A stretch of 48,684 nucleotides of DNA from Woeseiaceae bacterium (GTDB taxonomy: Bacteria > Pseudomonadota > Gammaproteobacteria > Steroidobacterales > Woeseiaceae), in the NCBI GenBank assembly GCA_021773155.1, contig JAJFKQ010000253.1:1-48684 (forward strand). Direction: 5' to 3'. Shown here piece by piece: positions 9,444 through 21,225 of this stretch. The notes under the pieces were generated by a model. It was not told the DNA's origin. It searched no databases and saw only the letters and a program-made list of their open reading frames with translations. The translations under genes were made by a program, and so were the position numbers. Position 1 is the first letter of the stretch; each line of letters starts with the position of its first letter.

Positions 9444-10124
9444 TCAGAAGAACACCGTGAGGCCAAGATGGCCTTCAAGATTGTGAGCTGTCTTCTCTTC
9501 GCCGAGCAGATCGATGTCAAACAGATGATCCCGGAAATCGAGGTGCAAAGCGACAGAGTCAGTCAACAGGAATCGGTAGCCAGCACCTACGTTAACAGTA
9601 AACCGGTCATCGCCAGCAAAGTCCGTCGAGCCAAGACCGGCGATCAGGTATAAGTTTGTGTTATATGCATGTCCCTCTCCGAGGAACACCTCCCCGGGGA
9701 GAATGTTGTAACCGAGATTCAGGTTGTAATACGTCATCGTGCGTTGGCTATCGGTGATGAGCCGCGCACCGCCCGACAAAACCTCAAAGCTCGTCAGGCC
9801 ACCGTCCGACTGGCCAACCGTACCCTCAACGAAGAAACCTTCCGTAATGTGGTAAGCAAGACGTACGCCGTAGGAGATGTTTGAACCAAAGTCTTCGATA
9901 CCCATGACGCCGACGTAGCCGCCCACTTCGAAGTCCTCACGGTCTATCGCCGGCTCTTTAATTTCCCGACGCTCAACCTGAGGATCAATCACTTGTCCAG
10001 GCGGTTCAGCAGAAGGAGGCGGCGCCTCTTCCCGGCCGAAACCAAAAAGATTTTTTGTTGCAGCACAGCCCGACAGGCCAACAATGGCAACAATTAGAAA
10101 AAGAACGCGAAACCGACTTTCCAT
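9444..10124 (-). CDS. Outer membrane beta-barrel lipoprotein
   Basis: Lipobox LSGC; VGGYVGVMGIEDFG...LGYNILPGEVFLG...; C-terminal LTVFF; OmpA/OprF-like barrel pattern. Confidence 0.75.
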   Translation of the reverse strand: MESRFRVLFLIVAIVGLSGCAATKNLFGFGREEAPPPSAEPPGQVIDPQVERREIKEPAIDREDFEVGGYVGVMGIEDFGSNISYGVRLAYHITEGFFVEGTVGQSDGGLTSFEVLSGGARLITDSQRTMTYYNLNLGYNILPGEVFLGEGHAYNTNLYLIAGLGSTDFAGDDRFTVNVGAGYRFLLTDSVALHLDFRDHLFDIDLLGEEKTAHNLEGHLGLTVFF

Positions 10125-10888
10125 TCTTCTACTTCCTCATTTTCATCACGGCTCGTGAAAACCACGTAGCTCTTGTATTCAGCTCGCAACAGGAATCGTC
10201 GCGTTGCATAAACCCGGGCACCGACGCCGACATGTCCGATCTGATCGGTGCGGTCCTCGCCCTGGATAATCGTTGATTTTGGGCTCGTGTGTATAACACC
10301 AGCGCCAAGCGTAAAAAACGGTGACACACGCCATTCTGGAAACGCCTCGTGAACAATATTGACGCTGCCCGTCCAGCCATTCGAAAAGTTGCCCAGAATC
10401 TGCGAACCCCATAGCTCAACAGAGACATTGGGATTGAGTGAGTATCCGCCATAAAGCGACACGATGTTAGCGCCACCGAAATCACCGGCGAGCACACCCA
10501 ATTCCCATTTCGAATTGGTGAAGTCTTCCAGGTTGGCCTTGTCAAAACTGACGGGGTTGCCGTCAGGCTGGAGAGTCAGTTCCATTTGCGCCCGGTCAAC
10601 CCAGCCTTCCTTGCCCTTGTCCGTACGCACGAGATACCACTCAGTGCGCTGCATGATGACTTCGACGTTTTCGCCGCGATCAACAACGTGAAATATTGGA
10701 TAGCCGCGACCCGGTCCCGTGCGCATTTCCAGGTACGGGGCAGCAACGGTTACAGAGCGATATTCATCAGCAGCGCGAACCGGCGCTGTCAGAAAAATCT
10801 GCAGCACGATCGCAACCACACATAGGAGCCGAAGGCCTCTAGTTAGCTGGGGCGTCGAAGGGATTGTTGTAATACTGGGCTCCGACAT
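10094..10888 (-). CDS. SH3b domain plus outer-membrane beta-barrel protein
   Basis: SH3b-like VAAPYLEMRTGPGRGYPIFHVVDRGENVEVIMQRTEWYLVRTDKGKEGWVDR then barrel ending VGFAFFF; ATG at 10888 (MSEPS) overlaps the upstream stop by 50 nt. Confidence 0.78.
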   Translation of the reverse strand: MSEPSITTIPSTPQLTRGLRLLCVVAIVLQIFLTAPVRAADEYRSVTVAAPYLEMRTGPGRGYPIFHVVDRGENVEVIMQRTEWYLVRTDKGKEGWVDRAQMELTLQPDGNPVSFDKANLEDFTNSKWELGVLAGDFGGANIVSLYGGYSLNPNVSVELWGSQILGNFSNGWTGSVNIVHEAFPEWRVSPFFTLGAGVIHTSPKSTIIQGEDRTDQIGHVGVGARVYATRRFLLRAEYKSYVVFTSRDENEEVEEWKVGFAFFF

Positions 10889-13628
10889 CCAACCATTCCG
10901 CGATGAGACGTTGTTCCGCTTTGGACAAAATATCGCCGTGAATCGCATAGCTGGGATTGTTTGGATTGTTGAATCGGTCAAAGAAATCGCTCGAAGCCCT
11001 TGCGCCGGCAATTGAGGCAGGTGATGCGTACGGTATGTTCTCCAGGATGTCGTTTCCGTTCGCATCCTGACCGATAACCCGGGTCGCATCCACTACCATG
11101 CCATTGTCTAATATCTGAAGGTTATCAGTAACTAACAGCTCGCGATAGGCGATCTCGTGATCGGGCTCATCCGCCGATGGCCCGGTCTGCAATTCCAGCT
11201 GCCCGGCCGGGACTCGCGGAGCGTTGGCATTCTGCGGATCATTTGGTGTGTGGCATTGCAGGCAATTGTTGCTCACCTGTACACCATTGCCATCAAGGAG
11301 CGGTACTTCCGGCGTCGCCGGATCGCTGTCATCGTCGAACGTGACCAGTCGCGGTGCGTTCCATAGCGGATGGATAATCGACACATAGTTGATGATACTG
11401 CGGCAGTTCCACTCCCAGTCTTGCCAGCAGGCGGCCGACGTCGGCGCACCCGTCGTAAGTTCCAGATAGCGATAGTCGATATCGACGTTGTTTGCAGCGA
11501 CCACCGGATCCGCCGTCCATACGTCTCGATAAATCACGTCCATTGATGGTTCGATCGACGAACAGTCTGTCGCACACGTAATACGCGCTCGCACCTCCGC
11601 CATCGTTTCGCCGACCTCGCCGACGAACCACTGCGGATCCGTATTCGGGAATGGCGCGCCCGCCGTCGTAGCACCGGCATAGGCACTATCGAACGCATCG
11701 ATACGACCGTGCGATACGCCACTGTTCGCATCATGGCAGCCATTGCATTTCAGCTCCTGGCCAGCCGCTACCGAAATCCAGTTCCGGTGGCGCTGCGCGA
11801 TGCGCATGGCATTTTCGTCAACAATAGTAATCATCAACGCAGCATTTGCCGGAACCTTGGTGATAACGGAACCGTCCGGCTCGATCATCGTGTAGCCGAC
11901 GATTTCTTTCATACCAAAGGCTGTCGTAATACCGAACGCTGTATTGTCGATATCGCGGATATCATCATTGGGCTGCGACACGGCCTTTTCGATGCGCAGG
12001 AATCGCGCCGGGCGATTCGCCGCCGGTGTTTGCAACGGATCGGCCAGTACAGCGGGATCGATTCCCGGCAGGAATGCGCCGTCAACTTCATAAACGTTGC
12101 GAATATTCAGCAAAGCTTCGCCATTGTCAGCAAGCGTCGCATCCAATGGATAGTCGTTCAGACCGTCAAGTACCACTGGCGGTGTCGGACGTGGATCGGC
12201 GGACACCACTTCCGTGAACATGATTCCTTCTTCACCGGCAACAATCGGCAGCTGTGTGTCATCGCGCGGGTCGTAGATCCAAATTCCATACAGCGGCGGT
12301 GCAACCAGAAAGTCACCAACGACAGGTGTTGGCGGATTGGCATCATTCGGGTCAATCACCAGCACGTTCGCGAGATTTTCAGGCGTGCAGGCGACTATTC
12401 GTTCATCAATCGTACTCGGGTCGCCGTCGTCCGGCAGAATTTCAACCAGGCGACACTGGCTCCAGCTGACCATCAATCGGCTGGTGCCGTCCTGGATCGG
12501 GTAGACCGAGAAGTAGCGACCGCCTGGTGATGGCTCACCTGGCACGGTCGATACGCTATTGATCGTGGCGTCTTCCTGTGCCGGTCCAGTAAGTACACCG
12601 ATGTTATCTTTCGTCGGCTGTGTGTTTTCGAGGTATTGCGGCGTATCGATAAGGATTAACTCACCGCCGCCTTCCGTATTCGTGAACGGACGCGCTAAAA
12701 CCATGACGCGACCGTCTTCAACCTGACGCGGTTGCATGAACTGAATCGTTTCGCCGTTAGCGCCAGTGTCGTGACTCTGTTGGCCGTACAGCAGTTCCTG
12801 GTTGGAGCCATCGGGGTTCATACGATACAAGTTGATCGCGTCATTCGGCCCATTGTGATCCCACCGGCTATAAACAATCTGGCCATTGTCGAGTACTGAT
12901 GGATCCATGTCATGACTCTGGTTAAACGTGACTTGTTTCAGCCCGCTACCATCATCATTCATTACATGTATGTTGAACGTAAATTCGTTATCGTCTTCAT
13001 TCTGCGCGGGGAAACCGCCCTTGCCCTCATCGAGCAGCAACGCCTGTGACTGCGTCTGGCGCGTCGACGAAAATATGATACGTCCGTCCGGCAGGTATTT
13101 CGGCATGATGTCGTGGCCGATCTCTGCCGTGAGTGGCGACAAAATTACGCGGGTGAGCTCATCCGTAGCAAATGTGTATTGCCAGATATTCCAGGTAGCA
13201 ACCTGGTCTTCCACGGCGACGCCCGCTTCGAATGGCATACGCATCGCGAACAACAAACGGCTGCCGTCGTAGTCGATCTCAACATCGCGAACTGCCGCGA
13301 GCCCCATCGAGACACGCTCAGTAATATTGACTGGCAACGCACTGACCGAGGCACGATCACGAAAAAAAAGGTCAGCGCCGAATTCGAACGTAATTTGCTC
13401 ACGCAGATCCTGCTGCTGGAAAACTCCGTTGTCATCTGTCGGCAGCGGAGACTTTATATAGGCGATCGGAAAATCGATCACCACAGGATCGGGGTCCTGT
13501 CCCGTGCCGATCTGCACACCGTCACCCTTGCTGCACGCAGCGATCAAAACACTCACCATCGACAACGCGACCATCCTGGTCAGTTTTCCGGCAGTTCCGT
13601 TTTCAGTTTGTTGCGATAGCCTGTTCAT
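10839..13628 (-). CDS. HzsA-related lipoprotein (TolB/PD40-like repeats with two CXXCH motifs)
   Basis: Lipobox LIAACS; VRDVEIDYDGSRLLFAMR, PDGRIIFSSTR, DPSVLDNGQIVYSRWDHNG; CNGCH and CLQCH heme-binding motifs; ATG 13628 (MNRLSQQ) or 13646. Confidence 0.75.
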   Translation of the reverse strand: MNRLSQQTENGTAGKLTRMVALSMVSVLIAACSKGDGVQIGTGQDPDPVVIDFPIAYIKSPLPTDDNGVFQQQDLREQITFEFGADLFFRDRASVSALPVNITERVSMGLAAVRDVEIDYDGSRLLFAMRMPFEAGVAVEDQVATWNIWQYTFATDELTRVILSPLTAEIGHDIMPKYLPDGRIIFSSTRQTQSQALLLDEGKGGFPAQNEDDNEFTFNIHVMNDDGSGLKQVTFNQSHDMDPSVLDNGQIVYSRWDHNGPNDAINLYRMNPDGSNQELLYGQQSHDTGANGETIQFMQPRQVEDGRVMVLARPFTNTEGGGELILIDTPQYLENTQPTKDNIGVLTGPAQEDATINSVSTVPGEPSPGGRYFSVYPIQDGTSRLMVSWSQCRLVEILPDDGDPSTIDERIVACTPENLANVLVIDPNDANPPTPVVGDFLVAPPLYGIWIYDPRDDTQLPIVAGEEGIMFTEVVSADPRPTPPVVLDGLNDYPLDATLADNGEALLNIRNVYEVDGAFLPGIDPAVLADPLQTPAANRPARFLRIEKAVSQPNDDIRDIDNTAFGITTAFGMKEIVGYTMIEPDGSVITKVPANAALMITIVDENAMRIAQRHRNWISVAAGQELKCNGCHDANSGVSHGRIDAFDSAYAGATTAGAPFPNTDPQWFVGEVGETMAEVRARITCATDCSSIEPSMDVIYRDVWTADPVVAANNVDIDYRYLELTTGAPTSAACWQDWEWNCRSIINYVSIIHPLWNAPRLVTFDDDSDPATPEVPLLDGNGVQVSNNCLQCHTPNDPQNANAPRVPAGQLELQTGPSADEPDHEIAYRELLVTDNLQILDNGMVVDATRVIGQDANGNDILENIPYASPASIAGARASSDFFDRFNNPNNPSYAIHGDILSKAEQRLIAEWLDVGAQYYNNPFDAPAN

Positions 13629-13703
13629 AGCTCTCACCTTGGGCATCGTGGCAGGTTACGCTGCAATGCAGCCGACTTACCGTTAACGCGTTCACAGTGT
13701 CTA

Positions 13704-14251: not shown

Positions 14252-15472
14252 ATGAATAACAGGATATGGACAAAACACATGGATGACGTTTTCAAAATCT
14301 TGTCTCGTGTAGCTTTAGCAGGACTGCTTACAGCGGTTCTTGCGATGCCGGCGAATGCGGGGGACCGCGAACAGGCCCGGCGAATTCACGATCGTCTTGC
14401 GGGCGTTCCGCCGAGCGATACTATTCTGGCGCAAATGGAAGCGGTGATGGCCGGTGGTACCGATCCACTTTGCCCGTCCGGCGTTAGCGGGCCGACGTGT
14501 GCCGCATACATCGCAATGGAAGACACGAATTTCTACAACGTAACATTGAAGAACTTCGCTGCTTCCTGGACCAATCGCGACCGGTCGGTATTTGTACCTC
14601 TTAATGATTACATCGCGACGGTTATCGGCCTGATTCGCGACGACCAGCCATTTAACGAGTTGTTTTCTCGCGATATCACGTACGTCGGTCGTAACGGTGT
14701 CGTTCCTGCCGCACCCGCTGCAAATAACAATGATCATTACGCACAACTTGAGGCGAACAACATCAATTTGCGTGATGAGCTGGAGCCGACGCAGCAGTCT
14801 GCTGTCAACAATATTCCTACAGGTGCGACGGCTGGCGTGTTGACTTCGCGTGCCGCATCGGAAGCATTTTTTATCGCCGGCACGAACCGTGCGATGTTCC
14901 GTTTCACGATGATCAACCATTTCTGCGCCGATATGGAACAGCTGCATGATCCGGCGCTGCCGCCTGACCGTATTCGTCAGGACGTGAGCCGCAGTCCGGG
15001 TGGCGACAGCCGCCTGTTTCTGAATAACTGCGTCGGCTGCCACACGGGCATGGACCCGATGGCGCAGGCTTTCGCGTATTACAACTACGACGAGGCCTCA
15101 GGTGCGCTGCAATACACGGCCGGCAATGTGCAGCCCAAGTACTTCAATAACGACCTGAACTTCCCGCCGGGATACAGGACGCCCGATGACCACTGGGATA
15201 ATTACTGGCGCGAAGGCCAGAACTCTTATCTCGGCTTTGACGACTCGCTGCCCGGCTCCGGAGACGGGGCACAATCGCTGGGTGCAGAACTTGGCAACAG
15301 CCAGGCATTTGCCGCTTGCCAGGTTAAGAAAGCATTTCGCGCGGTATGTCTGCGTGAACCGGACCTGCCTGATAACGGCACGGTTGATCAGATTATTGCT
15401 ACGTTCCGTGGTACCGGCTATCGGATGAAACAAGTTTTCGCCGATACCGCTGTTTACTGCATGGGCCAGTAG
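14252..15472 (+). CDS. Secreted protein with one CXXCH c-type heme motif
   Basis: Signal peptide VALAGLLTAVLAMPANAG; FLNNCVGCHTGMDPMAQAFAYYNYDE; ATG 14252 or 14282. Confidence 0.75.
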   Translation: MNNRIWTKHMDDVFKILSRVALAGLLTAVLAMPANAGDREQARRIHDRLAGVPPSDTILAQMEAVMAGGTDPLCPSGVSGPTCAAYIAMEDTNFYNVTLKNFAASWTNRDRSVFVPLNDYIATVIGLIRDDQPFNELFSRDITYVGRNGVVPAAPAANNNDHYAQLEANNINLRDELEPTQQSAVNNIPTGATAGVLTSRAASEAFFIAGTNRAMFRFTMINHFCADMEQLHDPALPPDRIRQDVSRSPGGDSRLFLNNCVGCHTGMDPMAQAFAYYNYDEASGALQYTAGNVQPKYFNNDLNFPPGYRTPDDHWDNYWREGQNSYLGFDDSLPGSGDGAQSLGAELGNSQAFAACQVKKAFRAVCLREPDLPDNGTVDQIIATFRGTGYRMKQVFADTAVYCMGQ

Positions 15473-15478
15473 GGAGAC

Positions 15479-18136
15479 ATGATAATGACTAAAGCAATCG
15501 GAATTGCTACCCGTGCTGTGACGAACCGTGCCCGGACGATTAAGTCACTGCGTGTATGCGTTGCACCAATCGTCGTCGCACTCGGGCTCTCGGCTTGTGG
15601 CGGCGGCGCCGCGACGACGGATAACCCTGTTTCGCAGGCACCCGGCAGCGGCAATAACTCAGCGTACACCGGACCAGCAGCGCGCGATGCGGATGTCCTG
15701 AAATTTCAGCAGGAATTCTGGGCTAATACGAAAACCACCGACCGCTGTGGCAACTGCCATAACGAAACGGTCGGTCAGCTGCCCATGTTTGTTCGCAACG
15801 ATGACGTAAACATGGCGTATGACGCCGCTGTTACGGTTGTCGATCAAGGACAGCCGTCAACATCTCGTGTCGTTGAAAAAGTCAGCTCCAAGACCGAAAG
15901 ACACAATTGCTGGGTCGAAGATCCGGGTGTGTGTGGAACGATCATGACTACGTGGATCGAAAACTGGGTGGGACCCACTGCTGGTGGTGGGCGTCAGATC
16001 GTTCTCACGCCGCCTCCGTCTCAGGACCCGGCGGATAGCAAGAACTTTCCTATCACGACAACAGCGTTTGAGCAGTTCATCTACACGCCGATACTGGCGC
16101 AGTACTGCCAGGGTTGTCACAGCTCGGAGTCTGCGACGGCACAGCAACCCTACTTCGCTGATCCGGATATTGACGTCGCCTACGAAGCGGCCAAGTCAAA
16201 GATCAATCTGGATTCGCCGATCAACTCACGATTTGTCATCAAAGTGAGCCCGAACCCTGCGATTTCCGGCGAATCGCATAACTGCTGGAACAATGACTGC
16301 CCGACAGCCGAAGCAGAGATGCTCGCGGCCATCACAGCATTTGCTAACGGCATTCAGGCGACCGTCGTTGATCCGGCACTCGTAACAAGTAAGGCGATAC
16401 GACTCATCGACGGCACACTCGCTGCAGGTGGCAACCGTTATGAAGACGCCCAGATCGCGCTTTGGGAGTTCCAGACCGGCAGTGGCCTCACGGCCTTCGA
16501 CACCAGCGGTGTTGATCCTGCGATCGACCTGAACTTCTCAGGTGACGTCAGCTGGTTTGGCGGTTGGGGAATCACGATCGGTACCGACGCGGCACAAGGC
16601 CCGGGTAAGGCCCAGGGTTCTACGACCTCCAGTAAGAAGCTGCATGACGTGCTGCAGGAATCCGGAGAGTTCTCGATCGAGGCGTGGATTGTTCCTGCCA
16701 ACGTAACTCAGGAAATGGCGCAAATCGTCAGCTACTCAGCCGGCCCTCAGTCGCGTAACTTTGCGTTACAGCAAACGCTTTATGACTACGACTTCCTGCT
16801 GCGCACCAACGCGGTTGACGCCAATGGCGATCCTTTGGTGCAGCTCGACGGCAACCCGGCACATTCAACGCCTGCAATGGACGAGGTATTGCAAGCCACG
16901 TTGCAGCACGTTGTCGCCACTTACGACCCGATCAACGGCCGCAGCATTTACGTCAACGGTGTTCTTGAATCCACAACGGATCCGACGCCCGGTGGCACGT
17001 TGATAGACTGGCAGGACAATTTCGCTGTCATTCTGGGCAACGAAGCCTCCAGTGACGGTTTGTGGGAGGGCACATTCCGCCTCGCCGCAGTTCATCGCCG
17101 TGCGCTGACACAGGAACAAATCGCGCAGAACTACGACGCTGGCGTCGGTGAGCGCTTTTACATGCTGTTCGATATTTCGGAACGTATTGGCGCACCGATA
17201 GACACGTCATTTGTATTGTTCGAGGCACAACAGTTCGACTCGTTTGCCTATTTGTTCGACAAGCCTCACTTCATCACGCTGGACGGCTCAACACCGGACG
17301 GAATTGCAATCGAGGGACTGCATCTTGCGATGAACGGTCAGGAAGTTGCCGTAGGCCAGTCTTACGCCAATATGGCGGAAACCACGGACTCTACGTTGAA
17401 TCAGGAACTCGGGCAGCCGTTGTCCGTTCTCGGTGCAGTCATTCCGCTTGAAAAAGGTCCCGGAGACGATCAGTTCTTCCTGACTTTCGACAACATCAAC
17501 GGTGCCATCTACAACCGTCCTGATGCTCCAATGCTGGTAGTCAGTCCAATCGATCTGCCTGATGCAGCGAAAATCGGGATTCGCACGTTCGACGAAATCG
17601 ATGCGACCTATGCTTCCATTCTTGGCGTTGACCGACTGATGGTGTACACAAACGACGTCAATGATGCGGCCGCCCACGTGGACGAAACCTATCAGGAACT
17701 GAGGCAATCGCTTCCGGCTATTGAGGATATCAACAGCTTCCTGTCGTCGAACCAGGTCGCTATCGCACAGCTTGCGATTCAATACTGTGACGCGGCAATT
17801 GGCACCAACGCTAATCCGAACCCGAATGCAGAAAACGTTGTCTGGACGTCATTCAGCTTCGATCAGGCAGCGGTGACGGCGTTTAGTGTCGGCAATCGCA
17901 ACAATTTTGTGGATCCCTTGATCGAACGCGCCGTCGGCCAGATCTCCGGCGCAACACAGCTGCTGTCGCAGCCAACATACGCGATTGTTTATGACGAGGT
18001 AGCTGCATTCACTGCGGCTGCCGGTCGTCCCGACAATCTTATTGACAGACTGCTTGTAGGCCAAAGTGACACGCGAGCGATTGCCAAGGGTGTTTGCGCC
18101 TCCGTACTCGGTAGTGCAGCCACGCTGGTTCAGTAG
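15479..18136 (+). CDS. LamG-domain lipoprotein with duplicated CXXCH/HNCW module
   Basis: Lipobox GLSACGGG; CGNCH (15746-15760) and CQGCH (16106-16120), each followed by HNCW...C; LamG-like FSIEAWIVP...HVVATYDPINGRSIYVNGV...RLAAVHRRALTQEQIAQNYDAG. Confidence 0.8.
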   Translation: MIMTKAIGIATRAVTNRARTIKSLRVCVAPIVVALGLSACGGGAATTDNPVSQAPGSGNNSAYTGPAARDADVLKFQQEFWANTKTTDRCGNCHNETVGQLPMFVRNDDVNMAYDAAVTVVDQGQPSTSRVVEKVSSKTERHNCWVEDPGVCGTIMTTWIENWVGPTAGGGRQIVLTPPPSQDPADSKNFPITTTAFEQFIYTPILAQYCQGCHSSESATAQQPYFADPDIDVAYEAAKSKINLDSPINSRFVIKVSPNPAISGESHNCWNNDCPTAEAEMLAAITAFANGIQATVVDPALVTSKAIRLIDGTLAAGGNRYEDAQIALWEFQTGSGLTAFDTSGVDPAIDLNFSGDVSWFGGWGITIGTDAAQGPGKAQGSTTSSKKLHDVLQESGEFSIEAWIVPANVTQEMAQIVSYSAGPQSRNFALQQTLYDYDFLLRTNAVDANGDPLVQLDGNPAHSTPAMDEVLQATLQHVVATYDPINGRSIYVNGVLESTTDPTPGGTLIDWQDNFAVILGNEASSDGLWEGTFRLAAVHRRALTQEQIAQNYDAGVGERFYMLFDISERIGAPIDTSFVLFEAQQFDSFAYLFDKPHFITLDGSTPDGIAIEGLHLAMNGQEVAVGQSYANMAETTDSTLNQELGQPLSVLGAVIPLEKGPGDDQFFLTFDNINGAIYNRPDAPMLVVSPIDLPDAAKIGIRTFDEIDATYASILGVDRLMVYTNDVNDAAAHVDETYQELRQSLPAIEDINSFLSSNQVAIAQLAIQYCDAAIGTNANPNPNAENVVWTSFSFDQAAVTAFSVGNRNNFVDPLIERAVGQISGATQLLSQPTYAIVYDEVAAFTAAAGRPDNLIDRLLVGQSDTRAIAKGVCASVLGSAATLVQ

Positions 18137-18164: not shown

Positions 18165-19781
18165 ATGACTAAGAGACGAAATGCACGGCACTGGGATGCG
18201 CCGCAGCTTCATGGAGATCATCCGCGCCCTGTCACGCGACGCCAGTTCGTGGCACAAGGCTTCATGACGGGTGCTGCTTACACGGTTGGCGGTGGTGCGC
18301 TTAGCCTGCTGTCTGCGAATGCGATGGCAGCTCTGTCACCAGACATCGATGATCTGCGCCTGAACACCTGCCAAATCACGGATGGTGCAGGAAAAATTCC
18401 GTTCATCTGTATTGACCTCGCAGGTGGTGCGAATATTTCGGGGTCCAACGTTCTCGTAGGCCAGTCGGGCGGTCAAAGCGACTTCCTGAGCACAGCTGGT
18501 TACGAAAAAATGGGTCTGCCAGGTGACATGGTACCTGGCCTGACCGACACAAACGGCAATCCGTTTGCGAACTTCGATCTGGGCCTCGGGTTCCACTTTG
18601 ACAGCGCATTCCGCCGCGGCATCATGGCAAGCCTGACGCCTGGAACTGAGGCGAATATCAACGGTGCGGTAATTCCCGCACGTTCCGATAACGACACCGG
18701 CAACAATCCGCATAACCCAATGGCCGGTATCGCTCTGGCGGGTTCCAAGGGATCCATATTGACGCTAGCTGGATCTGAGAACACCGAATCGGGTGGCAAT
18801 TCCATGGCCCCTGCGATGTTGTACAACCCGGAGCTGCGACCCACAAAGGTCGACCGCCCAAGCGACGTCGTCAACCTGGTTGACACGGGAGATCTCGTCG
18901 GCATTCTTTCGAAAGCAGATGCCACGGCAGTTATGGAGTCTATCTATCGCCTGTCTGACCAGAAAATGGGCCGGGTCGACACCCTGGTCGCTGAAGACGC
19001 AGCCATAAAGAAATCCGTACGATGTGGTTACGTGAAAGCTGCGCATATCGCCGAAGAGTTCGGTGGCGTGCCGATCGATCCACTTCTCGATACCAACATC
19101 GTTGCCGATGATAATTCCGCGATTTTCACAACCGCCGAGTTTACAGACGGCAGCCGCAGCGCTCGCGAATTCCAGAAAACAGCTTCCGTCATGAAGCTCG
19201 TCATGAACGGCTTCGCTGGTGCCGGCTGTATCGAGATGGGTGGCTACGATTACCACGGTGGTGCACGCGCTGAGGGCGAGGTCAAAGACTTCCGTGCCGG
19301 CCGCTGTATGGGCGCAGTACTCGAATACGCTGCGCGACTGGTCAAACCCGTCATGATGTACGTATTCAGCGACGGCTCGTTGTCATCGAACGGCACCATT
19401 GATAATTCGACCGAGGGTCGTGGCAAAGGTGAATGGACGAGTGACAACTCGTCAACCGCCGCGTCATTCTTCCTTGTCTATAATCCGACTCGAAGACCAA
19501 TATTGCTGGGAGGTACGCCCGAGGAACAGGCTGTTCACCAGCAAATCGGTGCGATGGATGCGGGTGGCTCAGTGATGCGTGCGGCAACGCCGATGGCCAA
19601 TAACGTCAATTTGCTCGTTAACTCGGTCATATTGAACTACATGGCGCTGCACGGTGATCAAGGCAACTTCGGCAATCTATTGTCCCCGGGCTGGAACCAC
19701 GGCCTCGGCGGAGCCACTCAGTTGGATGCATTGACCGCATTCTCCCCGATCGTCAGTGGAACTATCGCCAATCCCGTATAA
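18165..19781 (+). CDS. Tat-exported DUF1501-like protein
   Basis: VTRRQFVAQGFMTGAAYTVGGGALSLLSANAMAA twin-arginine signal; GGYDYHGG and late-domain layout like DUF1501; ATG at 18165 after AAAGGAAC. Confidence 0.65.
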   Translation: MTKRRNARHWDAPQLHGDHPRPVTRRQFVAQGFMTGAAYTVGGGALSLLSANAMAALSPDIDDLRLNTCQITDGAGKIPFICIDLAGGANISGSNVLVGQSGGQSDFLSTAGYEKMGLPGDMVPGLTDTNGNPFANFDLGLGFHFDSAFRRGIMASLTPGTEANINGAVIPARSDNDTGNNPHNPMAGIALAGSKGSILTLAGSENTESGGNSMAPAMLYNPELRPTKVDRPSDVVNLVDTGDLVGILSKADATAVMESIYRLSDQKMGRVDTLVAEDAAIKKSVRCGYVKAAHIAEEFGGVPIDPLLDTNIVADDNSAIFTTAEFTDGSRSAREFQKTASVMKLVMNGFAGAGCIEMGGYDYHGGARAEGEVKDFRAGRCMGAVLEYAARLVKPVMMYVFSDGSLSSNGTIDNSTEGRGKGEWTSDNSSTAASFFLVYNPTRRPILLGGTPEEQAVHQQIGAMDAGGSVMRAATPMANNVNLLVNSVILNYMALHGDQGNFGNLLSPGWNHGLGGATQLDALTAFSPIVSGTIANPV

Positions 19782-19857: not shown

Positions 19858-21225
19858 ATGACCAACGTAACGCATCTCCTCGCCTGCCCGCGCTGTGACA
19901 AGACGCCGCTGGATTCGTCTGACGACGCATTGCATTGCAAAGCCTGCAAAGTCGACTTTCCGATGCTGGAAGGTATGCCCTGGATGTTCGCCGAACCGCA
20001 GGCGGCGCTTGGTGAATGGCGTGGCAGACTGCAGTTTTCGCTGCAGCAGCTGAGCCACGAAATTAGCAGTCTTGAAAAAGAGCTGCAGGCCAGGGATCTG
20101 AGCGCCCTGGCGAAAAGTCGTGTCGAACGCTACAAGAAAGCTGTCGAATCGCATCGGCGCTCTTTGCAGAAACTACTGCAGCCCATCGAGATGCAATCTC
20201 TGCAAGGCAACTATGAAAGTTACCTTGCGCTACGAACGAGGATGCCGTCCGATCAGGGCTTGAACACCTACTATCCCAACATCCACCGCGACTGGTCGTG
20301 GGGTGAAGAAGAAAACAAGGCGTCATTAAAGCAGGTCCGGGCGATGCTTCATGACCACGCCGAACTTGGCAATATACTGGTGCTCGGGTCAGGCGCCGGT
20401 CGCCTGGCGTACGACATTCATACAAAACTCAATTGCACGTCGACTGTGGCTATGGATTTCAATCCGTTGCTTATGCTCGTTGCCAAAGCAGTGACATCGG
20501 GAAAAACCCTCAGCCTTTATGAATTTCCGATCGCCCCACTCGCGCTCGATGATGACGCTGTACTCAGAAAACTAACCGCGCCCGAAATTGCCGGCGAAAA
20601 TTTTCATCTGGTTCTTGGTGACGCATTGCGAGCACCGTTCCCGGACGCGTCTTTCGATACTGTCGTGACGCCGTGGTTCATCGATATTATCAGCGAGGAT
20701 TTGCCAGCGCTCTCAGCACGTATCAACAATCTTTTGAAAGATAACGGTCGCTGGGTGAACTTCGGCTCGCTGGCTTTCGCGAATCCCGAGCGTGCGCGCT
20801 GCTATAGCCCGGAGGAAACCAAGGCGATCGTTGCCGAAAACGGCTTCTCCGATCCCTACGTGTCACAGGCAACGATTCCTTACATGAATTCACCGGCAAG
20901 CCGGCACGGTCGTCAGGAGCGTGTATTTTCATTTTCGGCGTACAAGGAACGCAACGCGAAAAAGCCGGAGCGATACGTGGCATTACCTGACTGGATAGTC
21001 ACCGGCAAAGATCCCGTACCACTGACTCCGTCATTCCGGCAGCAAACCATGACGACACAAATATATTCTTTCATCATGTCACTCATCGACGGTAAACGAT
21101 CGATCAAAGACATGGCGGTTGTGCTGGAAAATCAAAAACTCATGACGAAGGAAGAGGCAGAACCTGCCATTCGCTCATTTATGACAAAGATGTACGACGA
21201 CTCGAAGAAACAGTCGGGGTTCTAA
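19858..21225 (+). CDS. Class I SAM-dependent methyltransferase with Trm112-like zinc-ribbon N-terminus
   Basis: CPRCDKTPLDSSDDALHCKACKVDFPMLEGMPWMF, then ILVLGSGAGRLAYDIH and DAPFPDASFDTVVTPWFIDII-like SAM motifs. Confidence 0.8.
   Translation: MTNVTHLLACPRCDKTPLDSSDDALHCKACKVDFPMLEGMPWMFAEPQAALGEWRGRLQFSLQQLSHEISSLEKELQARDLSALAKSRVERYKKAVESHRRSLQKLLQPIEMQSLQGNYESYLALRTRMPSDQGLNTYYPNIHRDWSWGEEENKASLKQVRAMLHDHAELGNILVLGSGAGRLAYDIHTKLNCTSTVAMDFNPLLMLVAKAVTSGKTLSLYEFPIAPLALDDDAVLRKLTAPEIAGENFHLVLGDALRAPFPDASFDTVVTPWFIDIISEDLPALSARINNLLKDNGRWVNFGSLAFANPERARCYSPEETKAIVAENGFSDPYVSQATIPYMNSPASRHGRQERVFSFSAYKERNAKKPERYVALPDWIVTGKDPVPLTPSFRQQTMTTQIYSFIMSLIDGKRSIKDMAVVLENQKLMTKEEAEPAIRSFMTKMYDDSKKQSGF

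Follow-up and report, generated by a model that had tools for sequence, protein, structure and literature searches.

The two tandem CXXCH modules of an exported LamG lipoprotein, encoded by gene B in a 48,684-nucleotide window from a Woeseiaceae bacterium (contig JAJFKQ010000253.1), are probably small class I-like c-type cytochrome domains with bis-His coordination and a disulfide-braced ligand loop, which would relay electrons within a redox set completed by genes A, C and H, with the LamG domain serving for docking. The feature is real and well conserved, and it is of a kind, the cytochrome c domain, that is already known; its interest lies mainly in the HxC...C pattern of the ligand loop and in a gene set that is strictly kept, while the domain class itself is predicted from sequence and structural models. 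If this reading is correct, the module represents a further cytochrome c domain family, one without a Pfam or NCBIfam model, in which a Met-to-His ligand change is combined with a disulfide. It would also mark A-B-C plus the HzsA-like gene H as a strictly kept gene set and offer a tractable counterpart, in Proteobacteria, to the PSCyt/LamG clusters known from Planctomycetes and Verrucomicrobia (PMC5615132). More tentatively, this unrecognised family (disulfide-braced His for Met, in tandem) may together with A, C and HzsA-like H constitute an undescribed multi-protein redox system in the gammaproteobacterial envelope, one that might switch its heme ligands with redox state or bind NO/O2, a broader proposal that we regard as possible rather than probable.

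Duplication and conservation of the CXXCH modules

Gene B (15479-18136, + strand) encodes an 885-residue lipoprotein in which, from N to C terminus, a lipobox is followed by module 1, module 2 and a LamG/concanavalin A-like domain. The lipobox (LSAC, 15587-15598, +) ends in Cys40, a residue that 83 of 84 homologues retain and that is predicted to be lipidated; the residue at +2 is Gly, which under the Lol +2 rule fits outer-membrane sorting, and the protein is thus likely to reside in the outer membrane. The LamG domain (PF13385; residues 383-549; 16625-17125, +; E = 2.7e-18) scores 67 bits against a curated cut-off of 27.6. Each module spans about 95 residues and consists of a helix, CXXCH, further helices, an H-x-C-W...C segment and a C-terminal helix. 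In module 1 (residues ~71-164 from first to last AlphaFold2 helix; 15689-15970, +) the predicted heme c site CGNCH (residues 90-94; 15746-15760, +), with His94 as its proximal ligand, precedes H142-N-C144-W...C152 (15902-15934, +), the proposed distal His and disulfide with the two Cys 8 apart. In module 2 (residues ~195-290; 16061-16348, +) the corresponding elements are CQGCH (residues 210-214, proximal His214; 16106-16120, +) and H267-N-C269-W...C274 (16277-16300, +), where the Cys are 5 apart, a spacing that is often 4-6 among homologues. The unit sequences and motifs quoted in the first-pass annotation recur exactly in the + strand translation of this open reading frame, and its span of 15700-16350 for the tandem modules agrees with the helix limits to within tens of bases.

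The residues that would bind heme are essentially invariant. Among 84 distinct homologues, aligned without selection by motif, 75 contain an unmasked module 1, and every one of these retains C90, C93, H94, H142 and C144, while C152 occupies the same column in 72; in module 2, C210, C213 and H214 are kept at the aligned columns in 83/83 unmasked homologues, and H267, C269 and C274 in 84/84. One of the 83, a single-module homologue (L095:3302-5662), reads CGTACH (CX3CH), with one inserted residue relative to CXXCH. CXXCH and HxC are thus essentially never lost across the 84 homologues, which implies that both are required together. The first-pass annotation had also pointed to a shared HNCW...C pattern, of which the His and first Cys are invariant and the second Cys nearly so, but not every letter holds: N143 is variable (Gln, His), as is N268 (Phe, Arg, Gln), and the Trp is replaced by Gly in two module-1 and four module-2 rows and is therefore not essential. 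The conserved core accordingly reduces to H-x-C...C, and the His is left as the sole invariant non-Cys ligand in the loop. A separate alignment of 111 modules was assembled with the CXXCH...HxC pattern, so that the invariance of HxC is there partly built in and the 84-homologue alignment provides the unselected check. Outside both modules, Cys770 (17786-17788) is present in 84/84 homologues and Cys873 in 54/84; the latter is perhaps its disulfide partner.

That the two modules derive from an internal duplication, as originally suggested, is borne out at every level of comparison. Though only ~30% identical, the halves align by BLASTP with 41.6 bits (E = 4e-11), their Smith-Waterman score of 99 is far above anything reached in 5000 shuffles (maximum 59), and family profiles of module 1 and module 2, each built from 38 orthologues, match by hhalign over 89 columns (probability 99.0, P = 7e-18). 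In the maximum-likelihood tree of the 111 modules all 49 module-1 copies fall on one side of a single branch (support 98/89), so that one old duplication explains the double forms, while module 2 groups with eight single-module copies. The low identity between the halves is what a separate origin would predict, by which two different cytochrome domains had converged; such an origin was already disfavoured and is exceedingly improbable, since the alignment runs the full length of the module and takes in residues that are not ligands (AY.AA, P..SR.V.K), and since the profile match and the supported branch both speak against it. Whether the single-module copies are older than the duplication or have lost module 1 depends on where this unrooted tree is rooted. 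Two genomes (G092 and G346) carry a double and a single version side by side, and the single-module paralogues, which hold a module-2-like copy, sit in A-B-C operons of their own; the two forms are thus best described as paralogous operons. The single-module versions are L086, L087, L088 and L091-L095, and four of them feature HxCG instead of HxCW.

Predicted fold and heme ligation

AlphaFold2 models module 1 alone (15668-15997) with a pLDDT of 92.6 and a pTM of 0.85, and both modules together (15662-16378) with a pLDDT of 89.0. Each module contains four helices (8-21, 47-54, 67-73 and 86-101 for module 1, in the numbering of the 15668-15997 model; 134-148, 170-178, 190-195 and 213-229 for module 2, in that of the 15662-16378 model), with CXXCH just past helix one and HxC in the loop that joins helix three to helix four. 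The predicted secondary structure thereby follows the class I-like order, in which an N-terminal helix and CXXCH are succeeded by a pair of short helices, the ligand loop and a C-terminal helix. The loop His lies 48 residues past the CXXCH His in module 1 (94/142) and 53 in module 2, and it is at this loop position that class I cytochromes c carry their sixth ligand. In these models, helix order and spacing are consistent with a class I cytochrome c in which His takes the place of the sixth ligand.

We propose that heme is covalently attached at the CXXCH of each module, where the motif's His would be the proximal ligand; the motif occurs twice, conserved, in an exported protein with a lipobox, as is expected of a c-type cytochrome. 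The His of H-x-C would then act as sixth ligand to give a low-spin bis-His heme, and the adjacent Cys could form a disulfide with the one that opens the C-terminal helix, a bond that would stiffen the ligand loop; a distal-ligand role for the His and a disulfide for the Cys pair, both predicted, are the best reading of the conserved loop. The same class I-like domain could in principle bind heme with a different sixth ligand, be it the thiolate of C144 or C269 or an open site, leaving the His to catalysis or hydrogen bonding. In favour of this arrangement, the two thiols are as invariant as the His, but each module holds a second conserved Cys, which in an oxidising compartment argues for a disulfide, and we therefore deem it quite unlikely.

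The heme-free models of the double and single modules returned no Foldseek match in the PDB below an E value of 5, in a search for which no control cytochrome was run; the one match to the single-module model, which is insignificant, is to TFIIS domain II. That match and the invariance of the six Cys/His ligands of each module as a set are what could be cited for a structural metal site (e.g. zinc), in which CXXCH and HxC...C would build a knuckle of C2HC/C4 type, its duplication giving a docking domain devoid of heme. Several lines of evidence run counter to it: the protein is an exported lipoprotein and relatives of the host carry the Ccm system, a helix directly precedes CXXCH, the module profile has significant likeness to PSCyt1-type cytochromes, and the neighbouring genes A and H encode CXXCH motifs too. 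We consider such a site very improbable and retain the bis-His cytochrome as the preferred reading.

Under that reading, the two hemes of the gene B product would form a short electron relay, with monoheme A, Tat-exported C and probably the HzsA-like diheme H as putative partners and LamG docking the protein to a glycan or to a partner protein; these partners, like any direction of electron flow, are part of the proposal. The gene B product is not a chance pattern but a real, uncharacterised protein with a presumed function in electron transfer (or gas binding), most likely as a diheme electron-transfer lipoprotein of the A-B-C/H redox set.

Relation to known cytochrome families

Pfam and NCBIfam scans of the whole protein and of the 111 modules yielded weak, CXXCH-centred matches and no model that covers the module; matches to Pfam cytochrome families stay below cut-off in the gene B product and the modules alike, and the Pfam scan of the protein found no PSD domains. 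The curated PSCyt1 score (PF07635) is not passed, with matches to 2 of the 111 modules (best E = 0.036). When the double and the single module were searched against PDB sequences, the matches likewise covered mainly the CXXCH segment. A weak NCBIfam match, NF047812 (LIC11213 family lipoprotein), occurs in 21/111 modules (best E = 1.8e-4) and could point to a distant relative.

Judged by profile comparison, the nearest profile to the module is that of PSCyt1-type cytochromes c. When compared by hhalign with ten PSCyt1-type domains of the same order, the module profile scores 47.4, whereas 60 column permutations that keep CXXCH average 25.4 and reach at most 32.8, so that the likeness reaches past the heme attachment motif. 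The local alignment covers 62 columns and ends just before the ligand loop, and the equivalence of HxC to MPP is thus one of position only: PSCyt1-type domains feature an invariant MPP at the ligand loop, whereas the module has HxC...C there and no MPP. In Verrucomicrobia and Planctomycetes, the functionally uncharacterised PSCyt/LamG proteins (PMC5615132) resemble the gene B product in the fusion of a small cytochrome c domain to LamG PF13385 and in their location beside conserved genes of unassigned function; the gene B product differs from them in its tandem cytochrome copies, its export as a lipoprotein and the missing PSD domains.

Replacement of the distal Met by His has a precedent in MtoD (PDB 4XXL), a bis-His monoheme class I cytochrome c with both His47 and His95 on the iron (PMC4412085). 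The spacing of 48 residues between the two His is identical to that in module 1, but MtoD is a soluble single-domain shuttle in Fe(II) oxidation, whereas the gene B product carries its modules in tandem on a lipoprotein.

The layout of the module is also similar to that of SHP and cytochrome c'', where extra residues lie between the N-terminal helix and CXXCH and a His/Asn/Asp sixth ligand is immediately followed by a disulfide; in SHP this is C89-C97, with the Cys 8 apart, and in cytochrome c'' the sixth ligand is a His that is let go upon reduction, a release influenced by the disulfide (PMC2909971). These parallels raise an alternative within the same fold, namely that the disulfide-held His of the module leaves the iron on reduction and thereby enables NO, O2 or CO binding or proton movement. 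In module 1 the Cys pair behind the candidate ligand has SHP-like spacing, which would suit such a switch, as would the behaviour of cytochrome c''. Yet the candidate ligand stands two residues before the Cys and not one as in SHP, the Cys spacing of module 2 is frequently shorter, and kinship to the family (PF09086, 20 sequences) is rejected by a profile score of 24.8 against a permuted mean of 23.6, with CXXCH alone in common. The resemblance is one of layout only and does not imply family membership; we regard a ligand switch or gas site as unlikely and favour a bis-His electron relay.

Gene neighbourhood and distribution

Gene B lies in an operon that is strictly kept, a feature overlooked in the first-pass annotation. 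It starts 6 bases past gene A (14252-15472, +), which encodes a 406-residue protein with one CXXCH (residue 260) and a C-terminal PSD2/PSCyt3-like similarity below cut-off, and it is followed by gene C (18165-19781, +), which encodes a 538-residue protein with a twin-arginine (RRQF) N-terminus and no Pfam match. Gene A is directly upstream of B in all 77 testable loci and gene C directly downstream in all 50. Divergent from B is gene H (10839-13646, -), whose 935-residue product contains a PD40 propeller, an HZS_alpha middle domain and two CXXCH (634 and 795), and downstream of H is gene I (10094-11089, -), which encodes a bacterial SH3 and outer-membrane beta-barrel-like protein. Both H and I are found upstream in 17/17 loci with 5 kb of upstream sequence, a count that leans on near relatives, which account for most flank-rich loci; loci L096, L098 and L100 also show gene H. 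Counted by CXXCH, the set would hold one heme in A, two in B and two in H. A search for literature on the A-B-C/H gene set found none.

Gene H resembles hydrazine synthase alpha in its middle domain (E = 1.3e-14) and in carrying two CXXCH, but at 63 bits it falls far under the hydrazine synthase equivalog cut-off of 800, and the likeness carries no implication of hydrazine chemistry. The gene C family is strongly conserved and of Tat type, with no Pfam match in 12 members; its GGYDYH and FSDGS blocks are only suggestive of DUF1501, a candidate that was rejected by hhalign (probability 3%, aligned at the GGWDTH/SEFGRT blocks).

Orthologues of gene B occur in 43 of 60 near relatives, and a public genome collection contributes 24 loci, mostly from Woeseiaceae. 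They are also present in 50/369 sampled Gammaproteobacteria genomes, or about one in seven, and every match in a phylum-level sample falls within this class. The maturation factor CcmE was found in all 22 good-quality relatives; the window's own genome gave no CcmE or Cytochrom_C_asm match, which, at 77% completeness, is probably due to missing sequence. Beside the operon, in the window as in many relatives, lies a methyltransferase gene (19858-21225, +) whose product is related to carnosine N-methyltransferase (PF07942, E = 5.8e-14) and combines a zinc ribbon of Trm112 type with an end that weakly resembles PqqD.
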